64,000 bases of DNA. Origin: an uncultured Acidobacteriota bacterium (lineage in GTDB: Bacteria > Acidobacteriota > CAIWXX01). Where the stretch lies: NCBI GenBank assembly GCA_903916735.1, contig CAIWXX010000078.1, positions 62,001 through 126,000 on the forward strand. Direction: 5' to 3'. Every line of letters begins with the position of its first letter. Positions within the stretch are counted from its first letter, which is position 1. A program made the translations under genes and the position numbers. Shown here one piece after another: positions 12,031 through 63,280 of this stretch. Under the pieces are notes generated by a model. That model was not told where the DNA came from. It did no database searches and was given only the letters and a program-made list of their open reading frames with translations.

Positions 12031-12950
12031 CGGATCATGCCACTTTGGGTCATACAATTCCTTTTCGAATCCTGATCGACGATGCCGTGAAGCTCGCACG
12101 AAAGCATTTCATGGTGATTTATTTTCCAGTGGCCGTGCCACTTGCCCTGATGTCCGGAATCATGGTCGCGACACAATCACATTGGATGATGGGCATTTTT
12201 TCAATGAGGAGCGGGGTATTCAATCTGGAACATATGTTCTCAACGATACTCCTGCTTCTCGGAATGAGTTTCCTGTGGGGTCTCGCTTTCGGCCTCGGTG
12301 CGGCGGCGATGATGAAGGGATCAATCGACGCCACCGCCGGTCGACCGGTTGATATGAAAAACTGCTGGCTTTTCGTTATCCAGCCTCAAACGATCGGCAC
12401 ACTGATTCTGAGCGGGTTGGCCATAGGCCTCGGATTCATGTTCTGTTTTTTCCCCGGAGTCTATATTGGGCTGATCCTAAGTTTCATTCTGCCGGTGATG
12501 GTTGACGAAAATCTTTTCGTCACCGATGCCATGCGCAGAAGCTACCAGCTTGTCCGTTACAACCCTCACTGGCCTTTTTTAAAAAATCCAATGGTCAAGG
12601 TTTTCACCATCTTCGTCCTCGGGGGAATACTCAGCTACATCGCCAATATCATCATCCAGCTTCCGCTCCTTGTTTATCAACAGATCATCATCTTCCGCGC
12701 CATCACATCGGGTGGTGGTGTGATGGACCCGGCAACCATTCTGTCCCGCACGATCTGGCTGCAGGTTCCTTCGAACATGTTTGGAACAATGGCTTCTATG
12801 GCCGTCCAAGTCTATGTCTGCTTCTGTATCGCTCTTCTGTTCTTTGATGTCCGGCGGAGGAAAGAAGGGGGTGACATTGCTCAAGCGATCGGCGAACTGG
12901 CTGAGGCAGGAGGAGTCATCAGGGACGCCAATGACCCCAGGATGTCATGA
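12027..12950 (+). CDS. Polytopic membrane protein, unknown function
   Basis: The ATG at 12027 overlaps the preceding stop as ATGA, with GAGGAGG just upstream, so this start is preferred to an in-frame ATG at 11997. The protein has 307 residues. About six hydrophobic segments are visible (residues about 30-55, 70-105, 120-155, 195-225, 270-290), with FFPGVYIGLILSFILPVMV as the strongest. A conserved-looking motif, VTDAMRRSYQLVRYNP, follows the third segment and resembles the amphipathic loop of DUF975-type or glycerophosphodiesterase-associated membrane domains. No reliable family call is possible. It sits between the SpoIIM-like and DUF4129 genes, where such operons often carry a membrane component. 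Confidence 0.8.
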   Translation: MTDHATLGHTIPFRILIDDAVKLARKHFMVIYFPVAVPLALMSGIMVATQSHWMMGIFSMRSGVFNLEHMFSTILLLLGMSFLWGLAFGLGAAAMMKGSIDATAGRPVDMKNCWLFVIQPQTIGTLILSGLAIGLGFMFCFFPGVYIGLILSFILPVMVDENLFVTDAMRRSYQLVRYNPHWPFLKNPMVKVFTIFVLGGILSYIANIIIQLPLLVYQQIIIFRAITSGGGVMDPATILSRTIWLQVPSNMFGTMASMAVQVYVCFCIALLFFDVRRRKEGGDIAQAIGELAEAGGVIRDANDPRMS

Positions 12951-54353: not shown

Positions 54354-54380
54354 GTGGCACGAAAAAAATATACGTGCTAC
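54354..54380 (+). promoter_or_regulatory. Candidate NikR operator upstream of the receptor operon
   Basis: GTGGCAC (54354-54360) and GTGCTAC (54374-54380) form an inverted repeat (6 of 7 positions complementary) with a 13-base A/T-rich spacer. The 7-N13-7 layout equals that of the GTGTTAC-N13/14-GTAACAC class of NikR sites. The last gene of the operon encodes NikR, so autoregulation is likely. Confidence 0.55.
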
Positions 54381-54502
54381 ATTGTGTGTCGGGCAAGACA
54401 CTGATGAATTCTCGGGCTGGTGCTTCAGCCGGCCCCGATGTTTCAGACGGCGTCATATGTTTTGAGCATTCGAGTCACCACATATTCTAAGTAGGAGGAA
54501 AA

Positions 54503-56554
54503 ATGCACGGGAAAACGATAGCTGCCCTGATCCTGTTCATCTTTATCATCGGACTCGGACAAAATGCCGTTTCACAGGAGACAAAGGATACGCCGGCGGT
54601 CACCGAAAAGGAAAAGTCCAAGGAACATGTCACCGTGACGGTCACTGCATTTAAGACGCCGAAGGAACAGAAGGAAATCACTCAAAAGGTGGCCGTCATC
54701 GACGCACTTGAAATCGATCGCATCCCGACGGCCAACCGGAACATCGCCGAGATACTGCGATATCAACCCGGTATGTTCGTCAACGTCCTATCACGCAACG
54801 ACGCCAACTGGGGGTCCTACGGCGGACTCGGACCGAAATATAACAGCTATCTTCTCGATGGACTTCCGATCGATTCCTTCATCGACACAATGAGCCTTGA
54901 TCCTTGGGCTTTCAAGCGAATTGAGTCGCAACGAGGGCCGGCATCGGTCATGTACTCCAACTATGCGAGCATGGATTTCGCCGGAAATCAAACTCCACTG
55001 GCAGGCGTGACGAATCTGATTCTCAAAGAGGAAATCGACGAACCTGTCACGCGGATGCTCCTCGGATATGGCACCTTCAACACATTTAACGGCCGCTTCT
55101 ATAACCAGGGCCGCAAGGGCGGATTCAACTATTTTCTGGGCCTCAACTATGAACAATCCGATTACACCAACTATGGGACGACTCCCTCATGGCTCAATAT
55201 CCTTAAAGATCCTGCCTATAAAAAGACCAAGTTCTATGCCAAGACCACATATTTCATTAATCGACCCGACCACAAAATTGCCGTCTTCGCTCATCACACA
55301 ACACACAGCGGCGATGCCGGCCGCCCCAATCGGGATTACCTGCACAACTATGACACCATCAATGCTCTCTACAGCAATCAGATCGACACCCGGACAAGTC
55401 TGCAGTTCAAAGCTGGATATCGCAACTATGACCGGCGCTGGGGGGAAGATAACTATCCTCTGAATCTCGCCTTGCGAGAGCACGACGGAGTCAATCAGGA
55501 GATTTATCCAACCGATCTGACAGTCAACATCAATCACAGCGATACAGGATTGCTGACAGCGGGGTTCGATACTCAATATGGCACTTACCGCACATACTCG
55601 GAAGTCTCAGGAATCAGGATGCCTGGCAATAAGGCCGAGACTCTTGCTGCAGGCGCCTACATTCAGGAAAAATATTCCTGGCAGCAGTGGGTGTTCCGGG
55701 TAGGAGGCCGCATCAACAGGACTCGCCACACGTACGACCTTATCGGCGGATCGCTTCCAGGCTTGACAGAAAAGGCATGGAATAAATTCCTCTGGAGCGC
55801 CGGGCTCCGGTACAACGCCTCTACCAACCTGTCGCTCTATGCGAATGCCGGAACCAGTTTCACTCCGCCTTCCGCCAAATCCGTCGGTGGGACTCTCCGG
55901 GCCGATGATATCGGCAAGCCCGGCAGAAACGGCCAGCTTCCAAATCCGGACTTGGAGCCCGAGCATGGACGGGCGGTGGACGCCGGTGTCGACTTCGTCC
56001 TGCCGGCCAAAATAACACTGGGCGCGCGTTTCTTCCTCAATCAGATCAACGATGCCATCGTTGAAAACGTGGTGAGCCAAGATCCATCACAAAGCATTTC
56101 GGTGAATGCCGGCAGGGCACAATCCTACGGTGTGGAAATACCCTTCAATCAGGAAATCAATGACAACCTGCATTGGTTTGCGAACCTGACGATCGAAACC
56201 ACGGATATCACGAATCCGATGGATCCCGATCAGGATGGCGCCAATCTCAGCTTCGTGCCTCGATATCTGGCCAATGTCGGCATCACGTGCCTCCTTCCGC
56301 ACGAGTTTTCAGTTTCTCCCTATCTCCATGCCGTCGGCAAATACTATGACGGCACGTCGAGAAAGAATCGCCGGTCCTTCGGAGACGATGTCGAACTGGA
56401 CCTGAGAGTTCAGAAGCCTCTTTCGCGAATCCGGGATGCAGGCGTTTTGTTCAATCTGGATCTGAACAATTTGGCCGACAACCGTTATGAAATGCCCTGG
56501 CAATTCCGAAATATTGGATTTAATATGCTGGTCGGCCTGGAATTTGTTTTTTAG
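54503..56554 (+). CDS. TonB-dependent outer-membrane receptor (BtuB-like; predicted nickel or cobalamin uptake)
   Basis: GTAGGAGG precedes the ATG. The protein has 683 residues. A signal peptide (ALILFIFIIGLGQNAVSQE) is followed by a TonB-box-like HVTVTVTAF. The plug domain spans about 45-160 (NIAEILRYQPGMFVNVLSRN, YLLDGLPIDSF, RIESQRGPASVMYSNYA). A 22-strand-type barrel ends LVGLEFVF with the C-terminal Phe of outer-membrane proteins. LSLYANAGTSFTPPSAKSVG and LEPEHGRAVDAGV are typical barrel motifs. It starts an operon with a binding protein, permease, ATPase and nikR. No B12 riboswitch motif is visible upstream, which favours nickel. Confidence 0.92.
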   Translation: MHGKTIAALILFIFIIGLGQNAVSQETKDTPAVTEKEKSKEHVTVTVTAFKTPKEQKEITQKVAVIDALEIDRIPTANRNIAEILRYQPGMFVNVLSRNDANWGSYGGLGPKYNSYLLDGLPIDSFIDTMSLDPWAFKRIESQRGPASVMYSNYASMDFAGNQTPLAGVTNLILKEEIDEPVTRMLLGYGTFNTFNGRFYNQGRKGGFNYFLGLNYEQSDYTNYGTTPSWLNILKDPAYKKTKFYAKTTYFINRPDHKIAVFAHHTTHSGDAGRPNRDYLHNYDTINALYSNQIDTRTSLQFKAGYRNYDRRWGEDNYPLNLALREHDGVNQEIYPTDLTVNINHSDTGLLTAGFDTQYGTYRTYSEVSGIRMPGNKAETLAAGAYIQEKYSWQQWVFRVGGRINRTRHTYDLIGGSLPGLTEKAWNKFLWSAGLRYNASTNLSLYANAGTSFTPPSAKSVGGTLRADDIGKPGRNGQLPNPDLEPEHGRAVDAGVDFVLPAKITLGARFFLNQINDAIVENVVSQDPSQSISVNAGRAQSYGVEIPFNQEINDNLHWFANLTIETTDITNPMDPDQDGANLSFVPRYLANVGITCLLPHEFSVSPYLHAVGKYYDGTSRKNRRSFGDDVELDLRVQKPLSRIRDAGVLFNLDLNNLADNRYEMPWQFRNIGFNMLVGLEFVF

Positions 56555-56563
56555 TGGAGACAT

Positions 56564-57607
56564 GTGCGGCAGATGAGATCAGGGAGCAGCCTGCTATTGG
56601 CTGCTCTTGTGCTGTGCTTGGCAACCGGCTGCACGAAAGTGACTTCGCAGAAGACTGAGAAGCCCGCCATCGTCATTACGGATTTTCGTGGGAAATCTCT
56701 CCAGCTCAACAGCCCACCCACTCGGATCGTCTGCCTCATCGAGAGTGTTCTGAGCGGCCTTTATATGCTGGGCGCAGAGCAAAGAGTGATCGGCGTATCG
56801 AGCAACGTCTATCAGGAGCCGGTGCTCCCTTACTATGCGGCGCTGGATCAACGGATCGCTCAGAGGAGATTGCCGGCGCCCGGCAACTGGGATTGGGTAA
56901 GCATCGAGAATGTCATTGCGTTGCAACCGGATCTCGTGATCATCTGGGCCGGCCAAACCGAAACAATAACGGCATTGGAAGAGCGAGGAATCCCGGTTTT
57001 CGGAATTTTCCTGAAAAATTTCGACGATGTTTATCGTGAGATTCATCTGCTGGGCGAGCTCACAGGCGAGGTTCCTCGGTCCCGCGAGATTGTGGCGTAC
57101 ACTCAACATGACGTGGATCTGGTCAGGCAGCGAATCGCATCCATCCCACGCAACAAGTGGCCACAGGCTTATTTCATGTGGGCGCAGGGAAGCCTTGAAA
57201 CATCGGGCCGGCCCAGCACAGTGGATGATCTTTTTTCTCTGGCAGGCGCCGATAATGTGTGCGGGTCCATCCGCCAGGAGCACGCGGTTGTGAATCTCGA
57301 ACAGGTTCTGTCATGGAACCCGGCCCTCATCGTCATGTGGGACAACGCAACCGCGAATCCGGAAAAAATCATGTCCGATCCTCAATGGCAAAACATTGCC
57401 GCTGTCCGAACCCAGCGAGTGTACGAATTGCCCGATGTTTTTCTGTGCGATCTCTGGACACTCAAATTCAGCTACGCCATCAAGTTGATGGCGAAGTGGG
57501 CGCACCCGGATCTCTTTTCAGATATGGATCCGGCAAAGGAAAAAGCAAGAATGTTCCAATTTCTGTATCAAAAAGGGCTGACGGATGGAACGTCATCACT
57601 CAAGTAA
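56564..57607 (+). CDS. Periplasmic metal-chelate/cobalamin-binding lipoprotein (BtuF/FecB-type)
   Basis: GTG start at 56564 with GGAG a few bases before it. The protein has 347 residues. The lipobox LATGC puts the lipidated Cys at 23. Two Rossmann-like lobes joined by a helix are indicated by FRGKSLQLNSPPTRIVCLIE, LQPDLVIIWAGQTETITALE and WNPALIVMWDNATANPEKIM, the Peripla_BP_2 plan. YAIKLMAKWAHPDLF ends it. It passes the ligand to the permease encoded next, whose start overlaps this gene by 23 bases. Confidence 0.92.
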   Translation: MRQMRSGSSLLLAALVLCLATGCTKVTSQKTEKPAIVITDFRGKSLQLNSPPTRIVCLIESVLSGLYMLGAEQRVIGVSSNVYQEPVLPYYAALDQRIAQRRLPAPGNWDWVSIENVIALQPDLVIIWAGQTETITALEERGIPVFGIFLKNFDDVYREIHLLGELTGEVPRSREIVAYTQHDVDLVRQRIASIPRNKWPQAYFMWAQGSLETSGRPSTVDDLFSLAGADNVCGSIRQEHAVVNLEQVLSWNPALIVMWDNATANPEKIMSDPQWQNIAAVRTQRVYELPDVFLCDLWTLKFSYAIKLMAKWAHPDLFSDMDPAKEKARMFQFLYQKGLTDGTSSLK

Positions 57608-58604
57608 AGCCTGGGCCATCTCTCTCTGCATACTGCCGGTCCTGGTTGTCCTGGTGTCGATCTTCATTGGCCCCTCGGCGGAAGCATCACCTCGCGCCGT
57701 CTTCGTCTGGCTGATCAGCATGGCAACGCCGGGCAGCCATTCACATACGCAGGGCATGGTGGAGACGATTTTGCTGGACGTCAGGCTTCCACGGATTCTA
57801 CTGGCGCTGGTCGTCGGAGCGGCACTGACGGCCTCAGGCAGCTCCCTGCAAGCCTTGATGCGCAATCCACTTGTCTCGCCCGACATTCTTGGACTCTCTT
57901 CCGGCGCCGCCTTCGGTGCGGCACTCTCGATGAGCCTCCATTGGATGCCTCTTCAGCCGGCGGCGTTTCTCTTCGGCCTACTGGCCACTGCGTTAAGCAC
58001 GCTCATGGCCGGTGGACGACGCGGCTTTTCGATGACCTCGCTTATACTAGCCGGTGTCATTACCAGCGGAATCTTCACCGCCTTGCTGACAATCGTTCAA
58101 ATCTATTCCGACCCATTCAAACTCCAGACCATTGTCCACTGGACGATGGGGAACCTTCATAATGCCTCATGGTCCAAACTCAGGTCGGCGGGATTGCCTG
58201 TTCTCGCGGGCGCCGCCGCATTGATGTTTCTCCGATGGCGGCTGAATGCTATTTCGATGGGCGATGATGAAATGCGCGCCGTCGGTCTTAACCCGACGCG
58301 GGAAAAAATATTGGTTCTCATACCCGCCACTCTCATTGCATCGGCCGCCGTGGCGGTGGCGGGCATCATTGGTATGATCGGCCTTGTGGTGCCACACATG
58401 ATCCGAATGCTGATCGGACCGGATAATCGAAAAGTACTCCCGGTCTCATTGGCCTTCGGTGGAGCATTCCTCGTTCTGGTGGACGATTTCGCTCGCGCCA
58501 TAACCTCATTCGAAGTGCCTGTCGGAATTTTCACGACACTGATCAGTGGACCGATCTTTTTTTATCTCCTCAAAAAGCATGATGCCGGATTCCGGGAGAA
58601 CTGA
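57585..58604 (+). CDS. FecCD/BtuC-family ABC permease
   Basis: The protein has 339 residues with about ten membrane helices. The hallmark region is VRLPRILLALVVGAALTASG followed by LQALMRNPLVSPDILGLSSG. The late motif FGGAFLVLVDDFARAITS is that of the FecCD family, as is LVVPHMIRMLIGPDNRKVLP, which contacts the ATPase. It transports metal chelates, haem or cobalamin through the inner membrane. Confidence 0.95.
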   Translation: MERHHSSKAWAISLCILPVLVVLVSIFIGPSAEASPRAVFVWLISMATPGSHSHTQGMVETILLDVRLPRILLALVVGAALTASGSSLQALMRNPLVSPDILGLSSGAAFGAALSMSLHWMPLQPAAFLFGLLATALSTLMAGGRRGFSMTSLILAGVITSGIFTALLTIVQIYSDPFKLQTIVHWTMGNLHNASWSKLRSAGLPVLAGAAALMFLRWRLNAISMGDDEMRAVGLNPTREKILVLIPATLIASAAVAVAGIIGMIGLVVPHMIRMLIGPDNRKVLPVSLAFGGAFLVLVDDFARAITSFEVPVGIFTTLISGPIFFYLLKKHDAGFREN

Positions 58605-58605
58605 T

Positions 58606-59424
58606 GTGGCGGTTATCGTCGACGATGTGACATTCGGTTACCATCAACGTCCGGTCTTGCAGAATGTCTCTTTTGAAATTGATCAGGGCCGGCTGGCCAT
58701 CTTGCTGGGAAGGAACGGGTCCGGCAAATCCACTTTGATCAAGATCATCGCCGGCCTGTTATCGGCTGTATCGGGCACAATCCGTGTGATGGGCAGGGAG
58801 TTGAAGGTCTTAAGGTCGGCCGAACGTGCGAAAACGATCGGCTATCTGCCGCAATTTCATCAGCCGGTTTTTCAATACTCCGTCGAAGATGTCGTGCTCA
58901 CCGGAAGGGTTGCCTATATCTGGAACGCACCGGGGCATTCCGATCGCCAGATCGCTCAAAGGGCTCTTCAAACGGTCGGCATCGAACATCTTCGAGATCG
59001 ACCCTACACAGAGCTGTCTGGAGGCGAACGTCAACTCGTGATGTTTGCGCGCGTGCTGGCTCAGGAACCGGACATCATTCTGCTTGACGAACCCGTTTCG
59101 CACCTCGACCTGGCGAATCAAATACAATTGCTCACCATGTTGAAGCGCATGACGCAGGCCGGGTGCACAGTCCTTGCAGCTTTGCATGATCCCAATATCG
59201 CCTCCCGTTTTGGCGATCAGTTTATTTTTCTAAAAAATTCCCGGATCGCCAGCCCACCAAACCGAGAATTTCCCTGGGACAGCGACTTTCTCTCAAGCAT
59301 TTATTCCGTCCAGCTTGAAACGATCAGAAGTAACGGCAAACCCCTGATCTTTCCGGTCCTGGAAAATACTCAACTGCCTCCCGGTCCCAAGGGCCCGCCC
59401 TCCATCGACCTAACCCCCTCTTGA
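58606..59424 (+). CDS. ABC transporter ATP-binding protein (FecE/BtuD type)
   Basis: I prefer the GTG at 58606 (GGGAG 7 bases upstream, directly after the permease stop). An ATG at 58579 would add nine residues but has no ribosome site. The protein has 273 residues. Walker A is GRNGSGKS at 35-42, the signature is LSGGERQLV and Walker B is DIILLDEPVSHLD. The H-loop lies at ALHDPN. It energises the FecCD permease encoded before it. Confidence 0.94.
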   Translation: MAVIVDDVTFGYHQRPVLQNVSFEIDQGRLAILLGRNGSGKSTLIKIIAGLLSAVSGTIRVMGRELKVLRSAERAKTIGYLPQFHQPVFQYSVEDVVLTGRVAYIWNAPGHSDRQIAQRALQTVGIEHLRDRPYTELSGGERQLVMFARVLAQEPDIILLDEPVSHLDLANQIQLLTMLKRMTQAGCTVLAALHDPNIASRFGDQFIFLKNSRIASPPNREFPWDSDFLSSIYSVQLETIRSNGKPLIFPVLENTQLPPGPKGPPSIDLTPS

Positions 59425-59434
59425 GGAAATTGAT

Positions 59435-59830
59435 ATGTCCGATCTTGTACGATTTGGAGTCTCCATCGAGAAGCATCTCCTCGATCAATTCGACCTGCTC
59501 ATCCGGAAGAAAAACTATACAAACCGATCTGAAGCGTTCCGGGACATGATTCGTCATGAGCTGGTTCAGAAGCAGTGGGTCGAAAATCAGGAAACGGCAG
59601 GCGCCATTACCTTTGTCTTTGATCACCACCGGCGAGATCTCCTGAACCGTGTCATACATCTCCAGCACGAACACTACTCGCTCATCATTTCCACCCAGCA
59701 CGTCCATCTGGATCACGATCGCTGCCTGGAAATCGTGGCTGTGCGGGGAGCCGCTCGACACGTTCAACGGTTGGCGGATTCACTGAAAGCCGTGAAGGGG
59801 GTGGAACACTGCGCTTTATCCATTATCTGA
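59435..59830 (+). CDS. nikR: Nickel-responsive transcriptional regulator NikR
   Basis: The protein has 131 residues, the normal size. The N-terminal ribbon-helix-helix reads LVRFGVSIEKHLLDQFDLLI followed by NRSEAFRDMIR. The ACT-like nickel domain keeps all ligands: H78 in QHEHY, then H89, H91 and C97 in TQHVHLDHDRCLE, equal to H76/H87/H89/C95 of E. coli with a shift of two. It lies 10 bases after the ATPase gene. When Ni(II) is bound NikR represses nickel uptake, so this gene gives the operon its likely substrate. Confidence 0.96.
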   Translation: MSDLVRFGVSIEKHLLDQFDLLIRKKNYTNRSEAFRDMIRHELVQKQWVENQETAGAITFVFDHHRRDLLNRVIHLQHEHYSLIISTQHVHLDHDRCLEIVAVRGAARHVQRLADSLKAVKGVEHCALSII

Positions 59831-61242: not shown

Positions 61243-61323
61243 ATGAACGTCGGTCACTCTGAATTGGGAGGGCTCGGCGAAGAAGATTCCGACAAGCTCG
61301 CAACCACCCATGGAATCCGTTAA
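61243..61323 (+). CDS. Possible 26-residue leader peptide overlapping the transporter start
   Basis: The strong ribosome site GGAGGAG belongs to an ATG at 61243, not to the transporter ATG at 61310. This frame (MNVGHSELGG, LGEEDSDKL) ends at TAA 61321-61323, 14 bases inside the transporter gene and in another phase. Either it is a coupling leader, or a one-base sequence error hides the true N-terminus of the transporter. Confidence 0.4.
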   Translation: MNVGHSELGGLGEEDSDKLATTHGIR

Positions 61324-63280
61324 GCGAATCCTTTTCGGCGAGCCTCGGGATCCGACCGATCCGAAGGTTTTTCACAAGATTTCCCTGATCGCCTTCCTGG
61401 CATGGGTCGGTTTAGGCGCAGACGGGCTGACATCATCCTGCTACGGTCCGGACGAGGCCTTCCGGGCCATCCTCGGGCACCGTTATCTGGCATTCCACTT
61501 GGCGCTCATGACGGCCATCACTGTGGCCGTTATCTCCTTTGCCTATAGCCTCCTCATCGAGCATTTCCCCAGCGGCGGTGGAGGATACCTCGTCTCCACC
61601 AAGCTCCTGGGGGCCAAAGCCGGCGTTGTTTCCGGCTCCGCACTCGTCGTCGATTATGTGCTCACAATCACGGTTTCCATCTGTTCGGGCGTGGATGCTC
61701 TTTTCAGCATGCTGCCGATCGGATGGCAGAATTTCAAGGTCCCGGCTGACCTGGTGGTCCTCGGCCTCCTGCTGCTCCTGAACCTTCGAGGAGTCAAGGA
61801 ATCGGTCAAACTCCTTTTGCCCATCTTCATCTTCTTTGTAGCCGCCCATTTCCTCCTCATCACCTACGGCATCTTCAGCCATATCTGGGCTCTTCCGGGC
61901 GTGATCTCCACATCGCACGCGCAGATGACGAGAGACGCAAGCAGTCTGGGGTGGATTCCACTGCTGCTCATTCTCTTCAGATCCTACTCGTTGGGCGCAG
62001 GGACGTACACAGGAATCGAGGCCACGTCGAATGCTGTGCCGATTCTGAGGGAACCCCGGGTCGCCACAGCCAAGCGGACGATGCTTTACATGGCCATCTC
62101 GCTGGCGTTCACAGCAGGAGGAATCCTCTTTTGTTATCTCCTTTGGAACGCATCCCCTGAGCCGGGCAAAACCATGAACGCCGTGCTCGTGGAGAGGGTC
62201 TTTGGCTCGTGGGCTATCGGCACATGGGCCGTCGGCAAATGGCTTGTCATTTTCACACTGGCATCAGAGGGTGCTCTATTGTTCGTCGCAGCACAGACCG
62301 GGTATATCGATGGACCGCGAGTCCTCGCCAATATGGCCGTCGACTCATGGGTTCCTCATCGATTCGCACAGCTCTCCGATCGCCTTGTCACCAAATACGG
62401 CATCCTTATCATGGGGATCTCATCCGGATTGCTCGTGATCTATACCCATGGAAAAGTCTCGTTTCTTGTCGTTCTTTATGCCATTAATGTTTTTATAACA
62501 TTCAGCCTGAGCCAGCTTGGGATGAGCCGTTACTGGCTGGGAGAAGGCCGTCATCGCGCACCCCATTGGCGGCGATACCTTGTCATCCACGGCGTGGCGC
62601 TCATTCTCTGCCTCTCAATTTTAACGATCACCGTTTTTGAAAAGTTCGCCGAGGGGGGCTGGCTGACAATCGTCATAACAACTTCGCTGGTCATCCTGTG
62701 CCTGCTGATTCAGAAGCATTACGCCGGGATCCGAACCGAAATCAGGAAGCTGGATACCATACTCGACGAGATCCCGACAACACCAATGCCGGATGCCATG
62801 GCGGAATTGGATCCGAACAAACCGATCGCCGCACTCCTGGTCTCGGGCTACGGAGGCCTTGGGATTCACTCGATTCTCTCCATTCAGCGTCTCTTCCCGG
62901 GCTACTATAAGAATATTCTGTTCATCTCGCTGGGCATCGTGGACTCGGGCAGTTTCAAAGGCCGGCACGAAGTTGAGAATCTGGAAAAAGACACGGAAGA
63001 GAACCTGAAAAGGTACGTGGCATTCGCACGGAGTCTCGGGTTGCAGGCCGATTTCCGCTACAACCTGGGAACGGATGTTGTGGGAGAAGCCGAGCCGCTT
63101 TGTCAGGAAGTGGTGAAAGAATATCCGACAACGGTTTTTTTCCTTGGGAAACTGATCTTCGCCAAGGAGAAGCTGTACTATCGTATTCTGCACAACGATA
63201 CGGCGTTTGCCATTCAGAGGCGGCTGCAATTCAGCGGCCTGCAAACAGTTGTTCTGCCGATTCGCATGAACGTGGATTAA
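61310..63280 (+). CDS. APC-superfamily transporter resembling the K+ importer KimA
   Basis: The protein has 656 residues. The start ESVKRILFGEPRDPTDPKVF leads into about twelve membrane helices (residues 30-465), with FLAWVGLGADGLTSSCYGPD in helix 1, EHFPSGGGGYLV in helix 2-3 and SLGAGTYTGIEATSNAVPIL in helix 6. The last 180 residues form a soluble Rossmann-like domain (PIAALLVSGYGGLGIHSILS, YYKNILFISLGIVDSGSF), the place of the KimA-type cytosolic domain. With the c-di-AMP riboswitch upstream, K+ uptake is the best inference. Amino-acid transport cannot be excluded. The ATG has no ribosome site of its own. Confidence 0.88.
   Translation: MESVKRILFGEPRDPTDPKVFHKISLIAFLAWVGLGADGLTSSCYGPDEAFRAILGHRYLAFHLALMTAITVAVISFAYSLLIEHFPSGGGGYLVSTKLLGAKAGVVSGSALVVDYVLTITVSICSGVDALFSMLPIGWQNFKVPADLVVLGLLLLLNLRGVKESVKLLLPIFIFFVAAHFLLITYGIFSHIWALPGVISTSHAQMTRDASSLGWIPLLLILFRSYSLGAGTYTGIEATSNAVPILREPRVATAKRTMLYMAISLAFTAGGILFCYLLWNASPEPGKTMNAVLVERVFGSWAIGTWAVGKWLVIFTLASEGALLFVAAQTGYIDGPRVLANMAVDSWVPHRFAQLSDRLVTKYGILIMGISSGLLVIYTHGKVSFLVVLYAINVFITFSLSQLGMSRYWLGEGRHRAPHWRRYLVIHGVALILCLSILTITVFEKFAEGGWLTIVITTSLVILCLLIQKHYAGIRTEIRKLDTILDEIPTTPMPDAMAELDPNKPIAALLVSGYGGLGIHSILSIQRLFPGYYKNILFISLGIVDSGSFKGRHEVENLEKDTEENLKRYVAFARSLGLQADFRYNLGTDVVGEAEPLCQEVVKEYPTTVFFLGKLIFAKEKLYYRILHNDTAFAIQRRLQFSGLQTVVLPIRMNVD

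Follow-up and report, generated by a model that had tools for sequence, protein, structure and literature searches.

A predicted NikR-controlled operon for the probable import of a nickel complex across both membranes, from an uncultured acidobacterium and with relatives in Bacteroidota

Outer-membrane receptors and FecCD-class transporters are readily assigned to iron or vitamin B12 uptake, and annotation pipelines would give these labels to the genes of a compact five-gene unit in an uncultured member of the Acidobacteriota, where a TonB-dependent receptor, a substrate-binding lipoprotein, a permease and an ATPase are followed by the gene for the nickel-responsive repressor NikR. We consider it quite probable that this operon is a self-contained, autoregulated importer that carries a nickel complex over both membranes, and that nikR, together with a predicted operator, reassigns a conserved operon family to nickel. 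That NikR would bind and repress here, that the metal would be nickel, and that it would arrive as a chelate are readings of sequence. The window analysed, a 64 kb stretch of genomic DNA, had been the subject of an earlier note that proposed nickel-chelate import under NikR autoregulation; this proposal is supported by the gene content, a conserved box and the lack of a B12 riboswitch, but the canonical polarity that the note gave to the box, and its view of the transport parts as B12-type, are not. Being in one piece and portable, the operon offers a system for studying how nickel passes the outer membrane and in which complex, questions poorly answered outside Helicobacter.

Gene calls and domain matches agree on the five tightly spaced genes described earlier (Table 1), which are separated by gaps of about 10 nt or overlap. 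For the ATPase, an ATG near 58579 is a likelier start than the GTG listed. NCBIfam models for BtuC, FecCD and FhuB all score below their cut-offs on the permease, as do the haem-type and FecE-type matches of the ATPase. The upstream neighbour is folC, and the leader between it and the receptor carries the candidate box, GTGGCACGAAAAAAATATACGTGCTAC; in the roughly 1.3 kb downstream of nikR there are no recognisable genes and no terminator, and genes for metallophore synthesis are absent from the five-gene operon. Farther along the window, a c-di-AMP riboswitch (RF00379, 61113-61243, 79.7 bits) is directly followed by a gene (61310-63280) whose product matches the potassium importer KimA (6s3k, E 3e-59), with no Pfam or NCBIfam model firing. 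This KimA-like potassium transporter and its riboswitch are unrelated to the nickel operon; the pair would be a riboswitch-controlled KimA in Acidobacteriota.

Table 1. Genes of the operon and predicted operator, with positions in the window
Feature	Position	Strand	Evidence or remarks
Predicted NikR operator GTGGCAC-N13-GTGCTAC	54354-54380	.	Published-site matrix, shuffles, conservation
TonB-dependent receptor	54503-56554	+	Pfam Plug and TonB_dep_Rec_b-barrel; siderophore/metallophore (FhuA-FoxA-CntO) type
Lipoprotein substrate-binding protein, FecB/CeuE/BtuF class	56564-57607	+	Peripla_BP_2, lipobox LATGC
FecCD-family permease	57585-58604	+	PF01032, 273 bits
ABC ATPase	58546-59424 (listed start = GTG)	+	PF00005
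NikR nickel-responsive repressor, last gene of operon	59435-59830	+	RHH_1 and NikR_C

The repressor itself is readily recognised, with 101.6 bits to NikR_C and a score above the cut-off of the NCBIfam NikR model (PRK04460), and it aligns with the solved NikRs 2bj1, 2ca9 and 1q5v. In this alignment all four positions of the square-planar nickel ligands, the three histidines H78, H89 and H91 and the cysteine C97, match those of the solved proteins, in agreement with the earlier statement that the ligands are intact. The viral contigs searched held no relative of this NikR. The genome holds another nikR (L001 1326-1755; G000:C3), which is frameshifted and lies just after an OprB-type porin gene; it may be a pseudogene, a sequencing error or a foreign contig in the bin.

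The description of the transport parts as B12-type does not survive closer comparison. The best NCBIfam match of the receptor is TonB-siderophor, below its cut-off, and its PDB matches are CntO, FoxA and FhuA; no TonB-B12 or BtuB model in NCBIfam matches it. For the binding protein, a structure search with the model (pLDDT 89.7) placed 4ovk, 4hn9, YiuA, HI1472 and Helicobacter pylori CeuE closest in fold. CeuE, which is the NiuB of H. pylori (PMC5140060), is fitted in its nickel-histidine structure with TMq 0.75, TMt 0.85 and rmsd 2.9 Å, the two proteins sharing the fold at about 18% identity over the fold alignment, while BtuF first appears at rank 39 with a TM of 0.62. Judged by the model, then, the protein would be nearer to the nickel-binding CeuE/NiuB than to BtuF. 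The motifs PGxWD and YFxW, the pair E239-H240, and C295-D296 with WTLK are invariant or nearly so in binding proteins whether or not their operons are linked to NikR, a pattern that favours a single substrate.

These comparisons bear directly on the possibility that the cluster is a cobalamin or corrinoid importer, built as BtuB-BtuF-BtuC-BtuD and standing beside nikR by chance. Such an importer would account for the top NCBIfam match of the permease, BtuC (which at 221.8 bits stays under its cut-off of 461), and for the presence of BtuF among the matches of the binding protein, but it is at odds with the fold and receptor comparisons above and with the repeated linkage of nikR described below. 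Moreover, a cobalamin riboswitch, a common though not invariable feature of the leaders of such importers and one which the earlier note had named as a finding that would tell against nickel, was searched for and found neither in the window (Rfam) nor in 18 related, orthologous loci, and the single one in the genome precedes another receptor, which does match the TonB-B12 and BtuB models, if below cut-off. We therefore regard cobalamin import as extremely unlikely.

Control by nickel is suggested by the leader. The inverted repeat reported ahead of the first gene is present, ends 122 bases before the receptor ATG and is imperfect (7-N13-7, one mismatch). By symmetry alone it is not rare, comparable inverted repeats occurring in the same 500 bases, and symmetry was rejected as evidence for the box because equally good repeats abound. 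Scored with a matrix that drew solely on the ten delta-proteobacterial NikR sites listed in PMC545781, the box comes out top among 127,947 placements in the 64 kb, with the next one 2.8 bits lower, and it beats all 400 dinucleotide shuffles of its own leader (p 0.0025, the floor for 400 shuffles). Those ten sites come in two polarities, including the canonical inward form GTGTTAC-N13/14-GTAACAC as well as GTAACAC-N13-GTGTTAC, which is found in Desulfotalea and, imperfectly, before Desulfovibrio vulgaris nikK (PMC545781). The box had been likened to GTGTTAC-N13-GTAACAC, of which it matches just 9 of 14 letters; the inverted-polarity form, with outward half-sites and a spacing of 13, fits better (11 of 14). 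The search in canonical polarity proved misdirected and was set aside; the strict pattern GTGNNAC-N12-15-GTNNCAC occurs nowhere in the window and at six places in the genome, none of them before this operon, with a higher count for the control. A relaxed pattern, GTRNYAC-N13/14-GTRNYAC, was derived from the symmetrised published sites and the box of one ortholog (L033) and gives four matches in 5.37 Mb, one of them the window box, against 12 for the reversed control; it was drawn up with the window box already in view, and the matrix test is for this reason the cleaner of the two. The three other matches were taken as chance: two lie within coding sequence and the third (GTAACAC-N13-GTGACAC; L087 2525-2551, G000:C137:36024), a fair NikR-type box but probably fortuitous, stops immediately ahead of a response-regulator gene that has no nickel context. 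A third half-site was also considered, at a distance of 20-21 bp from the box (AAGACAC in the window, GTTGCAC in L033), and was discarded because it does not hold across loci; the GTTGCA of L033 probably belongs to a -35 element.

The operator recurs in another phylum. A search with the receptor recovered the same operon in Bacteroidota, there with nikR as the first gene (L031, L032, L033, L057, L059, L061 and L063), and two further loci, L034 and L067, show the same nikR-first arrangement as far as their short contigs extend (in L034, nikR begins on another short contig of the same genome, L046). The receptor orthologs are 39-57% identical. When up to 300 bases before nikR were scanned, the best-scoring box lay 28-36 bp before the nikR start in all nine nikR-first loci, with shuffle p values at the floor of 0.0025 in seven, 0.010 in L061 and 0.037 in L032; absence of the box from orthologous leaders had been set beforehand as a refuter, and it was found before the first gene of the nikR-linked operons throughout. 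A near twin of the window box, GTGGCACGAAAATAATAAATGTGTTAT, stands 28 bp before nikR in the orthologous operon of L067/L047. The box accompanies the promoter and first gene, not the nikR gene itself, since in the window it precedes the receptor and no box is found before nikR, the last gene (p 0.75). Its polarity is inward in L033 and L057 and outward in L059, L063 and L067, which suggests that half-site polarity may be free in this NikR class. The same recurrence weighs on a further alternative, that the operon takes up ferric siderophores or haem, with NikR as a mere modulator of it. The siderophore type of the receptor and the haem transporter model that tops the matches of the ATPase speak for this, yet a nickel repressor in nine other operons, with a predicted operator before each, would be hard to explain, and iron uptake would, as an expectation only, be placed under Fur; we hold iron or haem import to be very unlikely.

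Closer relatives of the source carry comparable operators. Three Acidobacteriota NikR genes, L012, L013 and L015, have GTGTTAC-N14-GTGACAC, GTGTTAC-N14-GTAACAC and GTGCTAC-N13-GTAGCAC, respectively, 37 bp before their starts, and such an operator class is therefore used in this phylum. Another acidobacterial relative has a perfect GTGTTAC-N13-GTAACAC just downstream of nikR (L005 1769-1795), which perhaps fronts another nickel gene. It counts against the nickel reading that the receptor-ABC operon also occurs in genomes in which no NikR was found (L026, L028 and L035), without a box in L028 and L035 and with a weak one in L026 (p 0.012); either the transporter can do without NikR or, most relatives being metagenome bins, its absence in these three may reflect incompleteness. 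The closest whole-genome relatives put the source in the Acidobacteriota; one of this phylum, G061, carries the receptor locus also present in L026, and the class of the source is represented by only one other sampled genome. In L035, a Syntrophobacterales bin, an ExbB-type proton-channel gene (12095-12811) follows the NikR-less receptor-ABC operon, as expected for TonB-driven uptake.

The trees set the NikRs of L033 and L057 off, as a lineage of their own, from the NikRs of the remaining Bacteroidota operons, and both the NikR tree and the receptor tree require the linkage of nikR to have changed at least three times, so that nikR and the transporter would have been joined more than once or swapped. 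The tie to nickel control therefore recurs and is not one inherited accident. Tentatively, and with considerable doubt, this may be widened to a picture of nickel-metallophore importers that recruited nikR repeatedly and span Acidobacteriota and Bacteroidota, with kin lacking NikR in bins of the Syntrophobacterales type; the NikRs of these importers would read pseudo-palindromic GTRNYAC half-sites in either polarity, and the operators of orthologous operons would flip orientation freely. A further point against the nickel reading is that receptors of the same family also stand where YfiR/HmsC-like and signalling (kinase) genes replace the ABC genes (L027 7884-11985, L058 4319-8910, L060 891-4961 and L062 4235-8761); there the family has apparently been reused with a signalling module. 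A plasmid-borne receptor-ABC operon of Acinetobacter, beside a GntR gene, was rejected as too distant to inform on function (binding protein 33% identical, receptor 23% over part only).

The genome gives a use for the metal. Two clear [NiFe] hydrogenase clusters are encoded, close to hypA, hypF and protease-like genes, along with two further hydrogenase large subunits that are group-4-like, and all four have both Cys pairs. Nickel is therefore needed, and among the transporters seen only the five-gene unit comes under predicted nickel-responsive control: neither NiCoT nor NicO was found in the genome, the operon holds no CbiM/NikM or NicO domains, and one CbiM-CbiQO transporter elsewhere in the genome is without the box. 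This demand also bears on whether the chelate might carry cobalt, or both metals with NikR acting as their common brake, as could be argued from the breadth of H. pylori NiuBDE, which imports nickel, cobalt and bismuth (PMC5140060), and from the title of Stoof 2010, as cited in PMC11247825, which ties the H. mustelae system to both nickel and cobalt. Against this, NikR is nickel-responsive and the [NiFe] hydrogenases give the cell a use for nickel, and we judge a role in cobalt import unlikely.

For a nickel importer, the parts suggest the following working. At low cell nickel, apo-NikR would leave the operator free and the five genes would be transcribed; the TonB-powered receptor would move the nickel chelate over the outer membrane, the lipoprotein would capture it in the periplasm, and permease and ATPase would drive the complex into the cytosol, where nickel would supply the [NiFe] hydrogenases. 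At high nickel, the Ni-NikR tetramer would grip the half-sites, 20 bp apart, and shut the unit off, its own gene included.

Much of this has precedents. Helicobacter already provides NikR-controlled TonB receptors and the import of nickel by a FecCD-class system (PMC3856676, PMC5140060), and Caldithrix provides NikR-linked receptor-transporter clusters (PMC5317091). The nearest counterpart is in H. pylori, where NiuBDE, whose genes turned up among the NikR targets (PMC5140060), and the receptors FrpB4 and FecA3 under HpNikR (PMC5140060, PMC3856676) likewise combine a FecCD-class ABC transporter, a CeuE-class binding protein, TonB receptors and NikR control, and the window has the NiuBDE-type set of FecCD permease, ATPase and CeuE-fold binding protein. 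Nickel import in H. pylori has been demonstrated experimentally, whereas here it is read from genes and their leaders, and the H. pylori parts are scattered where the window has a single operon that includes nikR. The H. mustelae system of NikH and FecDE/CeuE, likened by its description, also pairs a TonB receptor with a FecCD-class importer for nickel, but one operon with nikR is not reported for it (PMC3856676). Caldithrix abyssi groups nikR with genes for a TonB receptor and a transporter under a NikR-like box, as in the window, with the difference that the inner-membrane part is an ECF-type NikMNQO (PMC5317091) in place of FecCD and a binding protein. The delta-proteobacterial NikR regulon shares the operator class, with both half-site polarities and 13-14 bp spacing, and controls nikMNQO and an Fe-only hydrogenase, not a receptor-FecCD operon (PMC545781). 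BtuB-BtuFCD draws on the same part superfamilies and differs in its riboswitch and in the B12 type of its receptor and binding protein. In the literature covered, though Rodionov 2006 and others may already list members, what the present family adds to these systems is that all parts stand together in one operon, that this operon is spread over phyla and that its operator appears free in polarity.
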